A DNA stretch of 64,000 nt from Stratiformator vulcanicus (GTDB taxonomy: Bacteria; Planctomycetota; Planctomycetia; Planctomycetales; Planctomycetaceae), in assembly GCF_007744515.1 (NCBI RefSeq), contig NZ_CP036268.1:3926088-3990087 (forward strand). The letters run 5' to 3'. The translations under genes were made by a program, and so were the position numbers. Under the pieces are notes generated by a model that searched no databases, was not told where the DNA came from, and worked only from the letters and a program-made list of their open reading frames with translations. This document shows, piece after piece, positions 55,658 through 62,787 of the stretch. Numbering within the stretch: position 1 is the stretch's first letter; the number at the start of each line of letters is the position of its first letter.

Positions 55658-55840
55658 ATGGCTGTTCCCAAAAGAAAAACATCGAAGGCGCGAAAGCGGA
55701 AACGCCGCAGCCACATGGCTGTCAAACCGATGAATTTGGCCGCCTGCACGCAGTGCGGCAACATCGGGCCGACCCATGTCGTCTGCCCCAATTGCGGCTA
55801 CTACATGGGCCGCACGCTCGTCGAAACCGAGGAAGACTGA
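55658..55840 (+). CDS. rpmF: 50S ribosomal protein bL32
   Basis: A 60-residue ribosomal protein. MAVPKRKTSKARKRKRRSHM is the hallmark N-terminus. A zinc ribbon follows with CTQCGNIGPTHVVCPNCGYY, so this is the zinc-binding (C+) form of L32. The start at 55658 has AGGA about ten bases upstream. plsX begins 4 bp after its stop, the classical rpmF-plsX arrangement, and both likely share the promoter candidate at 55482. Confidence 0.96.
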   Translation: MAVPKRKTSKARKRKRRSHMAVKPMNLAACTQCGNIGPTHVVCPNCGYYMGRTLVETEED

Positions 55841-55844
55841 CGCT

Positions 55845-56837
55845 ATGCGGATCGCCCTCGACGCGATGGGCGGCGACCATGCTCCCGAGCCGAACGTGCA
55901 CGGGGCGATCGCGGCTCTCGATTTGCTGCCTGAAATCTCGGTTTGTCTCGTCGGAGACCGCCCTCGCCTTGAAACACTGCTCTCAGAGGCAGCTTACTCG
56001 GGCGACCGGATCACCGTGCACGCAGCCGAAGGCTTCATTGAGATGCACGAAAAGCCGGTCGAAGCGCTTCGGAAAAAGCCGAAGTGTTCGCTGGCGGTCT
56101 GCTGGCAGATGATGGCCGGCAAAGAAGTCGACGCCGTCGTTAGTGCCGGAAATACCGGGGCGGTCGTCGCCGCGGGTCTGCGAACGCGACTGTTCCTTAA
56201 AGGTGTTAAGCGGCCCGGCATCGCCGTGACGCTTCCAACCCTCAAAGGTAAGAGCGTCTTGATCGACGTCGGCGCTAACCCGCAGGCCCGGTCGGAACAC
56301 CTCTATCAATACGCCGTGATGGGCTCGATCTACGCGAAGTCGATCTTCAAGATTGATTCCCCGCGGATCGGGCTGATCAACATCGGCAGTGAAGATGGCA
56401 AAGGCAACGAACTGTATCGCGAGACTCACCAGCTCCTGACTTCGAGCGACTTGAAAGATCAATACGTCGGCAATGTCGAAGGTCGGGGGCTTTACGCCGG
56501 TGAAGCCGACGTCCTCATTTGCGAAGGGTTTGTCGGCAATGTCGTGCTGAAGACCAGCGAGGGAATTGCCGACTTCCTCATGAAATCGATCTCCGAAGCG
56601 ATCATGCCCGCCTTGGACGCCGACCGAGACAAGGTCATGGAGGCCTTCAAAGGCCTTGGTAAACGGTTTCAATACCATGGCACCGGCGGGGCCCCGTTGT
56701 TGGGCATCGACGGAATTTGCATTATTTGTCACGGATCGAGCAGCGCAGACGCAATTACCAACGCTCTGCGTGCGGCGACCAACTACGAACATCAGCACGT
56801 CAACGAGCGGATCACCGCCGCCCTCGTCCGCGACTGA
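55845..56837 (+). CDS. plsX: Phosphate acyltransferase PlsX
   Basis: A 330-residue enzyme converting acyl-ACP to acyl-phosphate at the start of phospholipid synthesis; it is peripheral at the membrane. Visible are MRIALDAMGGDHAPEPNVHG, the VVSAGNTGAVVAAGL loop, LIDVGANPQARSEHLYQYAV, and GFVGNVVLKTSEGIADFL. The ATG at 55845 is four bases from the rpmF stop. fabD follows after 97 bp. It acts with PlsY, not in the window. Confidence 0.96.
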   Translation: MRIALDAMGGDHAPEPNVHGAIAALDLLPEISVCLVGDRPRLETLLSEAAYSGDRITVHAAEGFIEMHEKPVEALRKKPKCSLAVCWQMMAGKEVDAVVSAGNTGAVVAAGLRTRLFLKGVKRPGIAVTLPTLKGKSVLIDVGANPQARSEHLYQYAVMGSIYAKSIFKIDSPRIGLINIGSEDGKGNELYRETHQLLTSSDLKDQYVGNVEGRGLYAGEADVLICEGFVGNVVLKTSEGIADFLMKSISEAIMPALDADRDKVMEAFKGLGKRFQYHGTGGAPLLGIDGICIICHGSSSADAITNALRAATNYEHQHVNERITAALVRD

Positions 56838-56934: not shown

Positions 56935-57843
56935 ATGGCGAAGCGCGCATTCCTCTTTCCCGGCCAAGGCGCCCAACACTTGGGGATGGCCCGGCAACTG
57001 ACCGAAGAGTTGCCGGCTGCCAAGGATCTATTCGATCACGCGGCCGATGTCCTCGGATTCGACCTGCTCGACGTTTGCGTGAACGGGCCGAAAGAAAAAC
57101 TCGATCAGACCGACGTCAGCCAACCGGCGCTGTTCGTCGCCGCTTTGGCCTCGCTGGAAAAGCTTAAAGCGGAGTCGCCGGAGCTGATCGACGAATGCGA
57201 ATTGACAGCCGGGTTGAGCCTGGGCGAGTACACGGCCCTGGTCTTTGCCGAATCTCTCACATTCGAAGAGGGGCTTAAGGTCGTCAAAGTTCGCGGCGAG
57301 GCGATGCAGGCCGCCGCGGAAGCCAGTCCTTCGGGGATGGTCAGCGCCCTGTTGCTCGACCGCGATCAGGCCAAAGCCATCCGCGATGAAGCGTCCAACA
57401 CCGGGCTGATCGAACTGGCGAACTTCCTTTGCCCCGGCAATACGGTTCTTTCGGGCGAGAAAGCGGCGTGCGAGAAAGCGATCGAACTGATCGAAGCCGC
57501 CGGCGGTCGACCGATCGAATTAGCCGTCGCCGGAGCGTTTCACACGGAGCTGATGCGACCGGCCGTTGATCGGCTGGCTGAAGCCCTCTCGGAAGTTCAG
57601 TTTCAGCCGCCGAGGATCCCAGTGATTTCCAACGTGACGGCCGAGCCGACATCGGACGCCGCCGAAATTCAAAAGGTTCTCGCTCAACAGGTCGTTTCAC
57701 CGGTACGCTGGGAAGACTCGATCCGTCACATGCTCGATCAGGGTATCGAAGAATTTGTGGAAGTCGGTCCGGGGCGAGTGCTCACGGGACTGCTGAAGCG
57801 GATCGATCGGAAAAAGAAGTGCACCGCGACCGAGTGCCCGTAA
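56935..57843 (+). CDS. fabD: Malonyl-CoA:ACP transacylase
   Basis: A 302-residue transferase loading malonate onto ACP. N-terminus MAKRAFLFPGQGAQHLGMAR. The active Ser95 is in TAGLSLGEYTALVFA. The partner His203 is in VAGAFHTELMRPAVDRL. VRGEAMQAAAEASP is the usual Arg-containing strand. It sits between plsX and acpP, in the standard fatty-acid order. The stop is followed by a 321-bp gap before acpP. Confidence 0.95.
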   Translation: MAKRAFLFPGQGAQHLGMARQLTEELPAAKDLFDHAADVLGFDLLDVCVNGPKEKLDQTDVSQPALFVAALASLEKLKAESPELIDECELTAGLSLGEYTALVFAESLTFEEGLKVVKVRGEAMQAAAEASPSGMVSALLLDRDQAKAIRDEASNTGLIELANFLCPGNTVLSGEKAACEKAIELIEAAGGRPIELAVAGAFHTELMRPAVDRLAEALSEVQFQPPRIPVISNVTAEPTSDAAEIQKVLAQQVVSPVRWEDSIRHMLDQGIEEFVEVGPGRVLTGLLKRIDRKKKCTATECP

Positions 57844-58164
57844 ACCCGTCGTGAGTCCGACGGACAGTGGCAACGATCGCTCAGAGGGAATTGACTCCTC
57901 TAATTGCTTGCCAGATCGTGCCACCGCGGTTGAACCGGAGAATCTCGCTGTGGTACAAGAGCGATGCGTGCAGAGAACCTGAGCAAGCCGCGTAAAGACG
58001 GATGATTTCTCGGCACAATTGCCGTTTACAGCCGAGAATTTGCAAACTATACAGCGTCGCTCCCCTGCGGTCTTGATCCGGGAAGCCCCCTCTGGGGCGA
58101 CAAGAAATCACAACTCAATCCAAAACTTACCGAAGTTCCGGACTGCCCCATGGAGGCCACAAGA
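57844..58164. other. Gap between fabD and acpP
   Basis: 321 bp. It contains a short GCCCC/GGGGC hairpin near 58084-58097 but no obvious T-tract, and GGAGG at 58152-58156 as the acpP ribosome site. No gene, repeat or regulatory RNA was recognised. Confidence 0.5.
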
Positions 58165-58413
58165 GTGTCTGACGAAAATCTGGAAGAAGGCGTCATTGCG
58201 ATCGTCAGCGATCAACTCAACGTCCCCGTTGAAGAGATCACGAAAGAGAGCAGTTTCATCGATGATCTCAAAGCCGACTCGCTCGATCTCGTTGAGCTGG
58301 TGATGGAGTTCGAAGACCGTTTCGAAGTCACCATCCCGGACGAAGACTACGAGAAGATCAAAACTGTCGGCGACGCGATCTCGTACATCAAGGAAAAGAG
58401 CGGGAATGCGTAG
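58165..58413 (+). CDS. acpP: Acyl carrier protein
   Basis: An 82-residue ACP carrying the growing acyl chain on 4'-phosphopantetheine at Ser39 in the [17 protein letters not shown] motif. The preceding [13 protein letters not shown] is typical. The start is GTG at 58165, because GGAGG lies eight bases before it; the in-frame ATG at 58150 overlaps that same site and adds five residues. Its last codons overlap fabF by 8 bp, implying coupled translation. Confidence 0.96.
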
Positions 58414-59650
58414 ACGGGTGGTTGTCACCGGCGCTGGTGTTGTCACCGCGCTCGGGTGCAATTTGGGCGAATATTGGGACGCGATCCTCGCCGGGAAGAG
58501 CGGGGTCGGTCCCATTCGACGTTTCGATCCGAGCGAATTCAAAGTTCGCTTCGGCGGGGAAATTTCGTATTTCAACGCAACCGAACTCGTCGATCTGCCC
58601 AAGAAAGAGCTCCGCCGGCTCGATCGCTTCAGCCAATTTTCCGTGGTCGCAACTGATCAGGCTTTCAAGCAATCCGGACTCGATCTCGGGGCCGAAGACC
58701 TGACGCGTTTCGGCGTGCTAATTGGCAGTGGGATCGGCGGCCTCAACGAAATCGAGGAGCAACACTCGACGTTGTACGGTCGCGGACCGACCCGCGTGTC
58801 CCCCTTCATGATCCCGAAGCTGATGGTCAACGCCGCCAGCGGGAACGTCTCGGTGCAGTGGGGGCTGAAAGGACCGAATTCGGCCGTCGCGACCGCCTGC
58901 GCTTCGGCGACAAACGCGATCGGTGATGCCTATCGGCTGATTCAGTACGGTACGGCTGACGTCATGGTCACCGGCGGTTCCGAAGCGGGTTTGACGCCGA
59001 TGGGGCTGTCCGGTTTCGGACGGATGAACGCACTTTCGACTCGCAACGACGATCCCGAGAAGGCAAGCCGACCATTCGATGCCGACCGTGACGGCTTTGT
59101 GCTGTCGGAAGGGGCGGGGATTGTCATTCTGGAAGAATACGAACGGGCGAAAGCCCGAGGCGCGAATATTCTGGGAGAATTGAACGGGTACGGCATGAGT
59201 GCCGATGCCACCCACATGACTGCCCCCGATCCCGAAGGCCGCGGTGCGGCAATGGCGATGGCGACCGCGATTCGTGACGCCGAACTGAATCCTGAAGATA
59301 TTCAGTACATCAACGCCCACGGCACGAGCACCCCACTGGGAGACAAGGCGGAAAACGTCGCAATACGCACGGTTTTCGGCGATCACGCTTCCAAACTGGC
59401 GGTCTCGAGCATCAAGGGTCATCTCGGTCACACGCTCGGTGCCTCCGGTGGCGTCGAAATCGTGGCCTGCCTGCTCGCTCTGCGCGATCAGGTCGCACCG
59501 CCCACGGCTAATCTCGATAAGCCGGGAGAAGGCTGCGATCTCAATTACGTGCCGAACGAGCCGCAGCAAATGCCGATCAAGTCGATTCTGAAGAACAGCT
59601 TCGGATTCGGCGGCCATAATGCCTGCTTGGTGCTTTCCGGGGTCCGATAA
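58406..59650 (+). CDS. fabF: Beta-ketoacyl-ACP synthase II
   Basis: A 414-residue condensing enzyme of fatty-acid elongation. The catalytic triad is intact: Cys165 in [18 protein letters not shown], His305 in [16 protein letters not shown] and His342 in [16 protein letters not shown]-terminus [16 protein letters not shown] is standard. It overlaps acpP by 8 bp. A second, catalytically altered ketosynthase follows after 279 bp, so the two may work as a pair. Confidence 0.96.
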
Positions 59651-59929
59651 GCCGCAAGCAACGATACGGCTCAGCTTTTTTGTGATTTGCGTCGAGCGTC
59701 ACGGTCGCATCGATTGTTTAATTCCGCTTTCCGATTTGCGGGAATTGGCCTACTCTTTGGCTGATTGGGGGCCAGGTGGTGCGATTTGGCAACACGTCGC
59801 CGCCTGTGTGCTACATTCGAGTGACACGATAGGCGCAGGCCGCCGATTGTGCCGCCTTTTACCAAAATGACGCCCCGCTCGGCCCGAACGCCCTTCGTCG
59901 CCGTCCCATTCGCGTACGGCTTAAGTGAC

Positions 59930-61237
59930 ATGCCTAACACCAGTAGTGAATCGTCGATTGTCGTCACCGGACTCGGTTTGGTCGGACCGCTCGGTCTGAC
60001 CGCGGATGAGTACGGCCAGCATCTCTTGGCAGGCGAAAGCGGTATCCGCCGAACCGACCTGATCAAAGGCCTCGCCGCACCTGAGAACGTCGGTGGTCAG
60101 GCATGGGGATTTGACGACAGCGTGACCAAAACGGTCATGCCTAAGAAACAACGAAAATTCGTGCGGGTGATGTGTCGGGAGATCGAAAGTGGCGTCGTCT
60201 CGGCGCTGAACGCCGTCGAACATGCCGGTCTCAATCTCGATGAAATGGACCGCTCCCGCATCGGGGTCGACTTCGGCGCTAACCTGATGTTCAGCCCGCC
60301 GGACGTGCTGCTCGATGCCTGCGTCAAATGCAGTGACGAAAATGGCGACTTTGATTACGACCAGTGGGGCACCACCGGTTTGAATGTGATGGAACCGCTG
60401 TGGCTGCTGAAATATCTCCCGAATATGCCGGCCTGCCACATCAGCATTGCGCTCGATGCCCGCGGTCCGAGTAACTCTTTAACGCTCGACGAAGTCTCGG
60501 GAATTAATGCAATCAGCGAAGCCTGTTCGATCATCCGACGCGGTCGAGCCGACGTCATGATTGCCGGCGTGACGGGAACCCGACTTCATCCGGTCAAGTC
60601 GATGCACGTCGCACTGTGGGACGATCTGGCTCAATACGATTCGCCGCCCGAAACCTGGTGCCGGCCTTTCGATCAATCGCGAAAGGGACAGGTTGTGGGG
60701 GAGGGAGCGGGAACGCTGATCCTCGAACGTCGCGATCACGCTGAGGCCCGCGGCGCAGAGATTCTTGCCGAAGTGCTCGGGACCGGCTCCTCGTGCGTAA
60801 TGGATCGCAGTGGCAAAGGCGACATGGTGAAATCGCTGACCAACGCAATTCGCGCCGCCCTCAGTGCTGCCGGCATTGCTCCCGACGAACTGGGGCACGT
60901 CAACGCGAATGCCGGCGGATCGCCTTCGGGAGATGCGGCCGAAGCCGAGGCGTTGCATCAGTCGCTCGGGGCGAAAGCCGCCGATATTCCGGTGACCGCC
61001 TTGAAGAGCTACTTCGGCAGTAGCGGAGCGGGATGCGGCGTCTACGAATTGGCAGGCTCGATTCTGGCCGGTCGGCAGGGTGTGATTCCCAAGACGCTCA
61101 ACTATGAATCGGGCGATTCAACTTTCCCGCTTAATGTCGTGCATGGCGAACATGCCTCAGCGGGCAGCAAGCTGTTTCTGAAGACGAACGTGACGCGGAT
61201 CGGTCAAGCCGCCGCCGTCGTTTTCAAGACGGCCTAG
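59930..61237 (+). CDS. Ketosynthase-fold protein with all catalytic residues replaced
   Basis: A 435-residue thiolase-fold protein aligned to FabF next door over its whole length. The active Cys is Glu188 (GPSNSLTLDEVSGINAI), the first His is Asn327 (HVNANAGGSPSGD) and the second His is Ser364 (ALKSYFGSSGAGCGV). The lysine two strands before (Lys359) is kept, as is QVVGEGAGTLILERR. The fold is kept but condensation is not possible, as in chain-length factors of type II PKS (usually Gln at the Cys site) or KS-beta partners. The start at 59930 (MPNTSSESSIVVTG) lacks a clear ribosome site; GTG 59849 and ATG 59867 are alternatives. Confidence 0.88.
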   Translation: MPNTSSESSIVVTGLGLVGPLGLTADEYGQHLLAGESGIRRTDLIKGLAAPENVGGQAWGFDDSVTKTVMPKKQRKFVRVMCREIESGVVSALNAVEHAGLNLDEMDRSRIGVDFGANLMFSPPDVLLDACVKCSDENGDFDYDQWGTTGLNVMEPLWLLKYLPNMPACHISIALDARGPSNSLTLDEVSGINAISEACSIIRRGRADVMIAGVTGTRLHPVKSMHVALWDDLAQYDSPPETWCRPFDQSRKGQVVGEGAGTLILERRDHAEARGAEILAEVLGTGSSCVMDRSGKGDMVKSLTNAIRAALSAAGIAPDELGHVNANAGGSPSGDAAEAEALHQSLGAKAADIPVTALKSYFGSSGAGCGVYELAGSILAGRQGVIPKTLNYESGDSTFPLNVVHGEHASAGSKLFLKTNVTRIGQAAAVVFKTA

Positions 61238-61341
61238 TTCGCTGACTCGATCGACATAGCCACGGTGGATCGGCGGGCGCGAATGGGGTTACGATCCCGC
61301 TGCTGAGCTTGCCCGCCTCTTACCGCTGGAAACCGTGCGTC

Positions 61342-62787
61342 ATGGAAGAAGCCGTCCCGGGGGAGGCTCCCGCCCGAGCCGAGATCGATACCGCCACGTT
61401 GCCGCCGCTCTGGCATGACCGCGCATTTTTGGGCATGACCGCGACCCAGTTTCTGGGTGCCTTCAACGACAACGTGTTCAAGCAGATGATCCTGCTGTTC
61501 ATTGTCGTGATGATTGTCGACAAGCAGTCCGCGGCTTCCTATCAGTTCGCGGCGACGGTCGTTTTCGCGGTGCCGTTCATTCTATTTTCCGGCTTCTGCG
61601 GTTTCTTGGCCGACCGGTGCGGAAAGTGGACGATCGTCTTTTCGAGCAAGGTCCTTGAGATCGCGATCATGCTTCTGGGCATGGCCGCATTCTACACCGG
61701 GCAAATCTGGCCGCTGCTGGTCGTGCTCTTTCTGATGGGTTCGCAGACCACGCTCTTTTCACCCGCGAAGTACGGAATTTTGCCCGAGATCTTTCGCCAC
61801 CGCGATCTGCCGCGCGTCAACGGCATCATTTCGATGACCACGTTTCTCGCGATCATCTTCGGGATGGTCATCGGTGGAGCGGCGAGCGAACTGGCGCGAA
61901 AGTATTTCGACGGAGAGTACTGGCTGGTCAACTCGTTCTGCGTGCTGGTCGCCATTGGTGGGACCGTCACTGCGCTGGTGATCCGTCGCCCTCCGCCCGC
62001 CAGTGCAAACCTGCAATTCCGACCGAGGGACGTCTTCATGACGTCTGAAACATGGACGATGCTCCGAACAGATCGTCCCCTGACTTTAGCCTTGGTGGTC
62101 AGCAGCACCTTCTGGTTTTTAGGGGCCATGGTGCAACTCGCGATCACCCAGTTCGGCGTGCAACAGTTAGATATCGGCGAACTGCGCACCAGCATCATGA
62201 GCGGCACGCTCTCGGTCGGCATCGCAATCGGTTTTGTCGTCGCCGGCCGGCTGTCTGAAGGAACGATCCGCTTTTCGCTTCTCAAATACGGAGCCTGCGG
62301 GATTGCCGCTTCAATGATCGGCATCGCGGTCGTCGCCGTGTTGCCAATCGTTTGGGGGCTTAAATATGCGGCGCTGCTGTTCGTGTTTCTGACGTCCGGC
62401 TTTTCGACGGGGTTATTCGCGCTACCGATCACCACTTATCTGCAGGTGAGACCCCCGTCCGATCAAAAGGGACGGGTGATCGCGGCGATGAATTTATTCA
62501 ACTGGATCGGTATCTGCTTTGCGGGCTTCGCCTATTTCGCCTGCGTCGCACTTCTAACCGCTTTCAAACTGCCGATGAGTTGGACCTTCGCAATTATCGG
62601 TTTGCTCATGGTTCCGGTTCCCCTGCTATATCATCCGCCCAACGAAAATATCGAAGCGGAAGACGATCAGCTTTGCCCGTCGTGCGGCGAAAGAAATCGG
62701 GCCGATGAATCAACGTGCGGCATGTGCGGCGCACCGCTCGACCCGCAAGACGAGGCCGTCGAAACTTCGGCCAGCCCGGCATCGTAG
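61342..62787 (+). CDS. LplT-like MFS transporter with a C-terminal zinc ribbon
   Basis: A 481-residue major facilitator protein. Twelve probable helices begin at residues 33-58 (GMTATQFLGAFNDNVFKQMI), and the FSPAKYGILPEIF and LPRVNGIISM segments are those of LplT-type lysophospholipid transporters. The last 50 residues are soluble and hold CPSCGERNRADESTCGMCGA, a Cys4 zinc ribbon. That fusion is unusual. The start at 61342 (MEEAVPGEAPAR) is preferred to TTG 61309. It follows the ketosynthase pair by 105 bp, in line with a lipid role. There is no acyltransferase (PlsC/Aas) domain. Confidence 0.85.
   Translation: MEEAVPGEAPARAEIDTATLPPLWHDRAFLGMTATQFLGAFNDNVFKQMILLFIVVMIVDKQSAASYQFAATVVFAVPFILFSGFCGFLADRCGKWTIVFSSKVLEIAIMLLGMAAFYTGQIWPLLVVLFLMGSQTTLFSPAKYGILPEIFRHRDLPRVNGIISMTTFLAIIFGMVIGGAASELARKYFDGEYWLVNSFCVLVAIGGTVTALVIRRPPPASANLQFRPRDVFMTSETWTMLRTDRPLTLALVVSSTFWFLGAMVQLAITQFGVQQLDIGELRTSIMSGTLSVGIAIGFVVAGRLSEGTIRFSLLKYGACGIAASMIGIAVVAVLPIVWGLKYAALLFVFLTSGFSTGLFALPITTYLQVRPPSDQKGRVIAAMNLFNWIGICFAGFAYFACVALLTAFKLPMSWTFAIIGLLMVPVPLLYHPPNENIEAEDDQLCPSCGERNRADESTCGMCGAPLDPQDEAVETSASPAS

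Follow-up and report, generated by a model that had tools for sequence, protein, structure and literature searches.

The protein encoded at positions 59930-61237 (+ strand) of the window, a stretch of 64,000 nucleotides from the genome of Stratiformator vulcanicus (5.23 Mb, single contig), is a full-length FabF-type ketosynthase devoid of the Cys-His-His triad, with its active-site lysine kept. We propose, with a probability of about 0.6, that this protein and its family, named KSE here, are dead subunits which keep the face docking the acyl carrier protein (ACP) and pair with an intact ketosynthase as the non-catalytic member of a heterodimer. This proposal is drawn from sequence comparisons, which reveal a dead site, a kept dock, a single clade, a tandem with the intact ketosynthase KS2 in several families and complementary losses in the two proteins. 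The features of the window on which we rely are the following.

55776-56837, + strand: plsX (family scan).
56935-57843, + strand: fabD (family scan).
58150-58413, + strand: acpP, acyl carrier protein (family scan).
58406-59650, + strand: fabF, ketosynthase with intact triad and a basic dock of its own, which may be the partner (TIGR03150, 609 bits).
59930-61237, + strand: KSE of the window type (type A), catalytically dead ketosynthase of 435 aa (open reading frame, Pfam, alignment, relatives by profile A1).
60143-60157, + strand: KKQRK, belonging to the basic patch of the ACP-docking helix (region of Lys65, Arg68 and Lys69 in E. coli FabF).
60392-60448, + strand: EPLWLLKYLPNMPACHISI, highly conserved block in the dimer-interface stretch, with Trp158 in 113/113 type A sequences.
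60491-60493, + strand: codon of Glu188, nucleophile (Cys) position (alignment; acid in 112/113 type A).
60908-60910, + strand: codon of Asn327, position of the first catalytic His (alignment).
61004-61006, + strand: codon of Lys359, retained catalytic Lys (alignment; Lys in 112/113 type A).
61019-61021, + strand: codon of Ser364, position of the second catalytic His (alignment).
61193-61210, + strand: TRIGQA, replacing the GFGG gating loop of FabF (alignment).

The genes are thus ordered plsX-fabD-acpP-fabF-KSE on the + strand, followed by an LplT-like transporter, and 279 bp separate the fabF stop codon from KSE. The KSE frame contains no internal stop, and an in-frame GTG at 59849 is an alternative possible start. 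The earlier note had described, from the sequence alone, a ketosynthase preserved along its full length but with no catalytic residues. Both Pfam ketoacyl-synt domains are matched (N-terminal, residues 8-271, 113 bits; C-terminal, residues 280-393, 65.8 bits), and our alignment confirmed the three substitutions: Glu188, Asn327 and Ser364 stand at the positions of Cys165, His305 and His342 of the neighbouring FabF. The wording was slightly too strong on one point: the Cys and both His are gone, but Lys359, the counterpart of FabF Lys337, remains. With TIGR03150, the protein scores 235.3 bits, under the equivalog cut-off of 493.75 for FabF/KAS II, and it lacks the triad expected of these enzymes. 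It shows the features of the KSE family, namely no triad, mostly an acid at the Cys site, a basic dock, no GFGG loop and mostly a Trp at FabF position 133. The AlphaFold model (pLDDT 90, pTM 0.89) predicts a FabF-like fold, and its best matches in the structure search were FabF enzymes (Foldseek TM 0.87, VIA Z 56.9); none of the 50 matches listed was a chain-length factor (CLF) chain, which has no bearing on kinship. KSE therefore resembles FabF in its predicted fold and nearest solved structures, and differs from it by its TIGR03150 score and the loss of triad and GFGG loop.

A first scan gave 217 relatives, the best 80 of which came from planctomycetes (78) or were labelled only 'bacterium' (2). 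The profile A1 was built from the window protein and 31 of these 80. At E 1e-95 it matched 198/198 sampled genomes of the class, in 109/109 genera; as this threshold also admits KS2 and intact sister proteins, the matches per genome are not counts of KSE. The best A1 match was at or below 1e-120 in 186/198 genomes and ambiguous in the remaining 12, where it overlapped the range of the intact sisters, the best of which reached 1.3e-119 (genome G007). Judged by score, nearly all of the genomes sampled in the class thus carry a dead ketosynthase, often near core fatty acid genes. On the same basis, a window-type copy is present in 51/51 genomes of the same family (best E 1.1e-166 or lower), which argues that the gene is not decaying.

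Relatives were labelled type A or type B by their best BLAST match, three rows being shifted to type A after the tree. Among 113 distinct type A sequences, some of them near-alike, the Cys site holds Glu in 94, Asp in 18 and Gly in 1; the presence of an acid rather than Gln at this site, pointed out in the earlier note, is hence borne out in 112/113. The Gly belongs to Alienimonas chondri (L025, 5001-6344), the sole type A sequence with neither acid nor Cys. The first His is retained in 99/113 and the second is replaced by Asn in 108 and by Ser in 5; the loss of both His, as in the window protein, is unusual within the family. The active-site Lys is present in 112/113, and the commonest state, found in 92 of the 110 distinct sequences named type A, combines Glu or Asp with His, Asn and Lys. 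Both His together with an acid (EHHK or DHHK) occur in some type B sequences and in some of the deeper KSE of the phylum. Orthologues with an intact triad had been named in the earlier note as evidence that would speak against its proposal: the triad is intact in 0/113 window-type sequences and in 15/15 members of the sister group. Two KSE of family f19 that stand alone (L192, 6175-7617; L193, 6314-7669) carry Glu, His, Glu and no Lys, and their active site is a different end state.

In a tree of 130 rows, 81/81 KSE rows fell on one side of a branch (SH-aLRT 100), and KSE grouped with the intact ketosynthases located upstream of KS2 in family f30 (support 98). In a tree of 86 rows, the KSE (53/53 rows, support 100) and the intact sisters (7/7, 99) were joined at 98, and the Streptomyces CLFs clustered with the Streptomyces ketosynthases (96). 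Both trees were obtained by 'quick' searches, near-identical rows and rows outside the length limits being dropped and the L176 ketosynthase being left out of the first one. KSE accordingly appears in these trees as one clade, sister to intact ketosynthases. Families f2, f3, f4, f6 and f8 also carry, apart from KS2, an intact relative belonging to the sister group, with Cys-His-His-Lys in 11/11 of those fetched. KSE and CLFs are separate in both trees, and an AU test on 34 rows did not reject their union in one clade (p 0.247), so that an origin of KSE apart from CLFs is favoured, not proved. On the 86-row tree, 2 changes are counted for the acid (two states), 12 for the first His (two states) and 13 for the second (three states), suggesting that selection holds the acid and not the histidines. 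The trees alone are silent on the direction of the Cys change; since FabF, KS2 and the intact sisters all have the Cys, we infer that it was lost in KSE.

In 10/10 type B loci fetched from families f2, f3, f4, f6 and f8, KSE directly precedes KS2 in the same orientation, at a distance of 11-93 bp. The cluster comprises FabZ-like dehydratases, ACP, KSE, KS2, an alpha/beta hydrolase and, in some cases, FabG. Among the matches listed for 24 genomes of these families, 20 genomes have a KS2 match 20-187 bp behind KSE in the same orientation; G145 adds one tandem, and G003, G058 and G070 display no KS2 among these matches. Among 11 deeper KSE of the phylum, 7 are beside KS2, 2 are cut by contig ends and 2 are alone. 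In these families and in most deep members, the KSE gene is placed directly beside that of an intact ketosynthase, as is the CLF gene; the window copy has fabF at 279 bp, a neighbour found near KSE in only 28/58 relatives. KS2 is the older neighbour of KSE, and would be its older partner. The separation of KSE from KS2 in many other families is evidence against the heterodimer: type B was beside KS2 in 0/10 loci of the window's own family and in 0/14 loci of f5, f7, f9, f10, f11, f13, f14, f16 and f17, one of which has a KS2-like gene 7 kb away. In G195, from the window's family, an extra KSE-range match was detected 409 bp upstream of a second KS2.

The ACP dock of E. coli FabF is formed by Lys65, Arg68 and Lys69 with Thr270, then Arg127, Lys128 and Arg206, and is completed by a hydrophobic patch (129-132 and 205-206); the ACP is contacted mainly by the monomer opposite to the one whose Cys is cross-linked to it (PMC7138838). 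Mutants of Lys65 are reported to be less cross-linked. At the corresponding positions, the residues of catalysis and gating and those of docking are distributed unequally among the planctomycete proteins. For type A, type B and deep KSE, respectively, the triad was found in 0/113, 0/34 and 0/11, GFGG in 0/113, 0/34 and 1/11, Asp265 in 0/113, 19/34 and 2/11, and Thr270 in 0/113, 0/34 and 0/11. Position 65 is Lys or Arg in 113/113, 34/34 and 11/11, and position 68 in 111/113 type A, the register of positions 64-69 being unsure by a few residues because of a small insertion in KSE, which does not affect the net charge. KSE has no basic residue at 69, and its position 206 is mostly acid or small. 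In KS2, the triad, GFGG, Asp265 and Thr270 are each present in 24/24, and position 65 is Lys or Arg in 2/24 and Asp or Glu in 15/24, position 68 being basic in 5/24. FabF possesses the triad, GFGG and Asp265 in 74/74, Thr270 in 67/74 and a basic residue at 65 in 71/74. In the intact sisters, triad, gates and dock residues are all present in 15/15.

The same distribution was obtained within 30 genomes of the window's family. FabF has the catalytic and gate set as well as the dock set in 30/30. KS2 has Cys, His, His, Lys, Asp265, Thr270, G399 and F400 in 30/30, with position 65 basic in 7 and acidic in 20. Type A KSE is basic at 64, 65 and 68 in 30/30, with Cys, Asp265, G399 and F400 in none and Thr270 in 3. 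By these residues, KSE keeps the dock only (with Asp265 in part of type B), KS2 mostly the acceptor set only, and FabF and the sisters both.

The net charge of the docking stretch was +4.9 in type A, +5.0 in type B, +5.4 in deep KSE and +3.6 in the sisters, compared with +0.5 in FabF and -0.9 in KS2 (Mann-Whitney P 0.013, KS2 versus FabF), -1.0 in the two Streptomyces ketosynthases and -1.5 in the Streptomyces CLFs; it is +6 in the window protein. In tandem pairs, the upstream member was the more basic in 19/19 (15 with KSE, 4 with an intact upstream ketosynthase), a count for which a P value would overstate the significance because the pairs share descent. L158 (KS2 in two frames), L183 (KS2 cut by a contig end), L189 and L190 (contig ends) were dropped from this comparison. 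The Streptomyces CLF was more basic than its own ketosynthase in 0/4. The KS2 of S. vulcanicus itself is a weak case, with a net charge of +2 and Asp, Lys and Leu at 65, 68 and 69. The Streptomyces ketosynthases show that such an enzyme can work another way with little docking charge, so the loss of the patch does not by itself prove that KS2 depends on KSE. In f30, both tandem members keep the Cys, and KS2 already has a strongly negative docking stretch (net -3 to -5); thus the dock of KS2 may have been lost before the Cys of KSE, in the order that these tandems suggest.

A second conserved region concerns the dimer interface. Over 34 genomes in which a single locus holds both genes, conservation averages 0.68 for KSE and 0.81 for FabF as a whole, and 0.90 versus 0.86 at FabF positions 141-160, where KSE has its most conserved block of 20 columns. 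In KSE, the block surrounding Trp158 (EPLWLLKYLPNMPACHI) is highly conserved. The Trp at E. coli FabF position 133, invariant in type A, presumably reaches the pocket of the partner. Seventeen of the 42 columns conserved in both proteins but with different residues fall within FabF positions 134-166, which account for 33 of the 410 columns. This stretch overlaps the described FabF dimer interface, made of residues ~140-180 plus loops 260-270 and 398-402 (PMC5206705). The interface Trp is absent in 4/34 type B sequences. As the intact sisters display both the Trp and the basic patch in 15/15, these traits alone do not prove that heterodimers form.

We infer from these data the heterodimer, its direction of loading and a Glu-Lys pairing, which would operate as follows. 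ACP would land on the basic patch of KSE, and the acyl arm would swing from the KSE-docked ACP into the Cys-His-His site of the partner. Wherever the partner's face no longer has a dock, the KSE pocket would not be fed, leaving its Cys free to go and its His free to drift; the Glu or Asp across from the conserved Lys may occupy the vacated site. KSE would most likely be the docking half, because ACP docks on E. coli FabF mostly through the opposite monomer (PMC7138838). Such a division of docking and catalysis between subunits would be a plausible reason for the survival of KSE. The general idea of the earlier note is supported to this extent: KSE is a pseudo-ketosynthase and probably requires an active ketosynthase as its partner.

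The earlier note had taken the adjacent FabF as this partner. KSE would then form a heterodimer with FabF in the main fatty acid pathway and shape the acyl pocket or set the chain length in a CLF-like manner, which we consider rather unlikely. This possibility is consistent with the gene order of the window, with the invariant Trp at position 133 and with the frequent linkage of the two genes: of the 58 loci with enough DNA (5 kb searched), 28 have fabF ahead of type A in the same orientation, 87-1344 bp away. The conservation of the FabF neighbourhood anticipated by the note thus holds in about half of the loci, but fabF lies on the opposite strand in 1 and is unseen in the flank in 29, one of which stands 1.6 kb after KS2. 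Of 30 same-family genomes, 20 have fabF no more than 5 kb upstream, 20 have nusA no more than 10 kb downstream and 15 have both, genes on different contigs being scored as unlinked (the case for 5 of the 10 genomes without a fabF link). Against FabF, its triad, gates and dock are kept in 30/30, and it therefore needs no partner. FabF sequences from lineages with and without type A (44 versus 28) differ at 12 mostly conservative columns, of which two (131 and 150) are in the docking/interface block 127-166, so that no adaptation of FabF to KSE is apparent. By tree distance, KS2 matches the window type no worse than FabF does: over 28 genomes, where all pairs correlate, the window type correlates at 0.941 with KS2 and 0.895 with FabF, and a thinned set of 15 (KS2 0.585, FabF 0.415, NusA control 0.600) singles out no partner. 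Elsewhere, finally, the neighbour of KSE is KS2.

For the window copy, we therefore slightly favour a heterodimer with KS2 acting in trans over one with the adjacent FabF; from sequence data, we would give KS2 somewhat less than an even chance, FabF about one chance in three, and no partner or another one about one in five. KS2 is at least as likely as FabF because FabF keeps its own dock. It gains further weight because KS2 mostly has no dock, because the interface block of the KS2-linked members is conserved in type A, and because in two genomes of the window's family (G116 and G180) the sole KSE-range match is a type A, while a KS2 (72% and 71% identical to ours) is present as well. One TGA was counted in the G180 span; the reading frame nonetheless runs uninterrupted over 429 aa and can be aligned over its whole length.

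A homodimeric pseudoenzyme would have no enzymatic partner at all: KSE would bind ACP, hold or sense acyl-ACP and regulate the plsX-fab operon. Its strong basic patch (+6 in the window protein), its kept fold and the many genomes in which its gene is apart from both fabF and KS2 are compatible with this. It would not predict that KSE and KS2 form a tandem in other families, nor that KS2 has correspondingly lost its dock, making this explanation an improbable one.

The earlier note had also considered priming by decarboxylation. KSQ decarboxylases are characterised by a Gln in place of the Cys with both His kept, and neither trait is seen in the window protein. That KSE decarboxylates malonyl-ACP to make acetyl-ACP primers could be suggested by the type B and deep members with EHHK or DHHK. 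Yet Gln occupies the Cys site in 0/113 type A, the second His is Asn in 108/113, the window protein has lost both His, and FabH is above its cut-off in 113/118 genomes, including that of S. vulcanicus (C1:4704124-4705086); KSQ-type priming is not supported and is very improbable on these grounds. A new acid/His activity, hydratase- or hydrolase-like, is scarcely credible although the commonest type A state (92/110) pairs an acid with a His, because the first His changes 12 times against 2 for the acid, so that a catalytic acid-His pair was dropped, and the window protein has no catalytic His.

The segment 55776-59650 of the window is a plsX-fabD-acpP-fabF operon without fabH and fabG. In E. 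coli, these two genes sit between plsX and acpP. A replacement of a missing FabH by KSE was ruled out, FabH being present elsewhere in the genome.

Returning to the docking subunit and its intact partner, the sequences suggest how the pair may have arisen. One ketosynthase would have been split into KS2, bearing the sole active site with its dock mostly lost, and KSE, bearing the dock without catalysis; the window-type KSE would later have been duplicated from this docking subunit into the plsX-fab-nusA region in part of Planctomycetia. This whole scenario is tentative, and we rate it slightly below even odds. If the split is real, each condensation needs an ACP that lands on one protein and reacts in the other; with the duplication, a KSE near plsX-fab-nusA could tie a second acyl pathway to the house-keeping one.

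Paired active and dead ketosynthases are known in polyketide clusters, in which the dead partner sets the chain length, and the hallmark of the CLF is a Gln at the Cys site. The four Streptomyces CLFs compared have Gln, Asp, Arg and Lys at the active site, with Gln in 4/4. Like the CLF of type II polyketide synthases (e.g. actinorhodin, 1tqy), KSE is a subunit without Cys and His found, in several families, beside an intact ketosynthase, with the Lys kept. It differs by an acid (112/113 type A, the other being Gly) instead of Gln, by a strong basic dock (about +5 versus -1.5), by its fatty-acid-type gene linkage and by its separate position in both trees, although the AU test (p 0.247) does not reject a union of the two. 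KSE is not a typical CLF, given the acid and a docking charge opposite in sign to that of the four CLFs. The AmcF-AmcG pair of cispentacin biosynthesis (KS-CYF), in the excerpt of PMC10698177, also associates an intact ketosynthase with a motif-less subunit in a reported heterodimer; it belongs to secondary metabolism, and AmcG is likened to KSE by description only. Background on FabF and on type II polyketide synthases was drawn from portions of a Yersinia FabF paper (PMC4606726) and of a catalogue (PMC10132072).

The separate branch supposed by the earlier note stands, but it was not entirely new, since the Cys to Glu/Asp substitution in planctomycetes had been published in 2009. In the portion of Rattray et al. 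consulted (PMC2649909), FabF paralogues without Cys163 are described in R. baltica (RB3714, Asp; RB4527, Glu) and in K. stuttgartiensis (Kuste3606, Val; 2805, Phe; 3348, Ser), the two R. baltica proteins being grouped with the divergent K. stuttgartiensis paralogues. The sites of the K. stuttgartiensis set are said there to point to another substrate and function, and substrate recruitment is proposed. RB4527, with Glu163, His298, Lys328 and Asn333, has the commonest KSE pattern, as judged by the published residues only. That portion contains no partner, docking split or class-wide conservation. In an excerpt of a 2016 paper (PMC4790861), non-canonical FabF/FabB of K. stuttgartiensis have locus numbers neighbouring those of canonical FabF (kuste3605/3606 and 2804/2805). 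These similar pairs of a canonical and a non-canonical protein occur within clusters proposed for ladderane synthesis in an anammox bacterium; the residues at their Cys site (Val, Phe) are not those of KSE, and they are likened to it by description only. Searches of open-access full texts yielded no paper assigning a partner or function to the planctomycete family. As far as the literature was searched, the wide family, the KS2 tandem and the docking/catalysis split are new, and they give a testable function to the 'non-canonical FabF' proteins noted in planctomycetes in 2009.

Downstream of KSE, the frame at 61309-62787 encodes an LplT-like MFS transporter with a C-terminal zinc ribbon, of which no BLAST relative (1e-5) was detected in the 80 loci L001-L080. 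In 5 of 10 listed fabF-KSE gaps of other genomes, one gene each was scanned: 3 had no Pfam match and 2 encode glycine-zipper proteins. The genome of S. vulcanicus contains one type A and one type B KSE. The latter (L094, 8715-10139; C1:2166861) has Glu, His, His and Lys at its active site and stands directly before a putative murC-murB-ddl group, assigned from reading frames, an odd place for an acyl gene. Type B was found at E 1e-130 in 28/30 same-family genomes, the copy of G164 being more distant. A second ACP-dependent acyl cluster of the same genome (L095, 7615-12535; C1:2231222), with counterparts in other families, comprises FabZ-like dehydratases, ACP, KS2 and an alpha/beta hydrolase. 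Finally, a further intact but very divergent ketosynthase, KS3, was identified in this genome (L096, 7978-11047), with frames resembling an ACP and an oxidoreductase (putative) on its 3' side.
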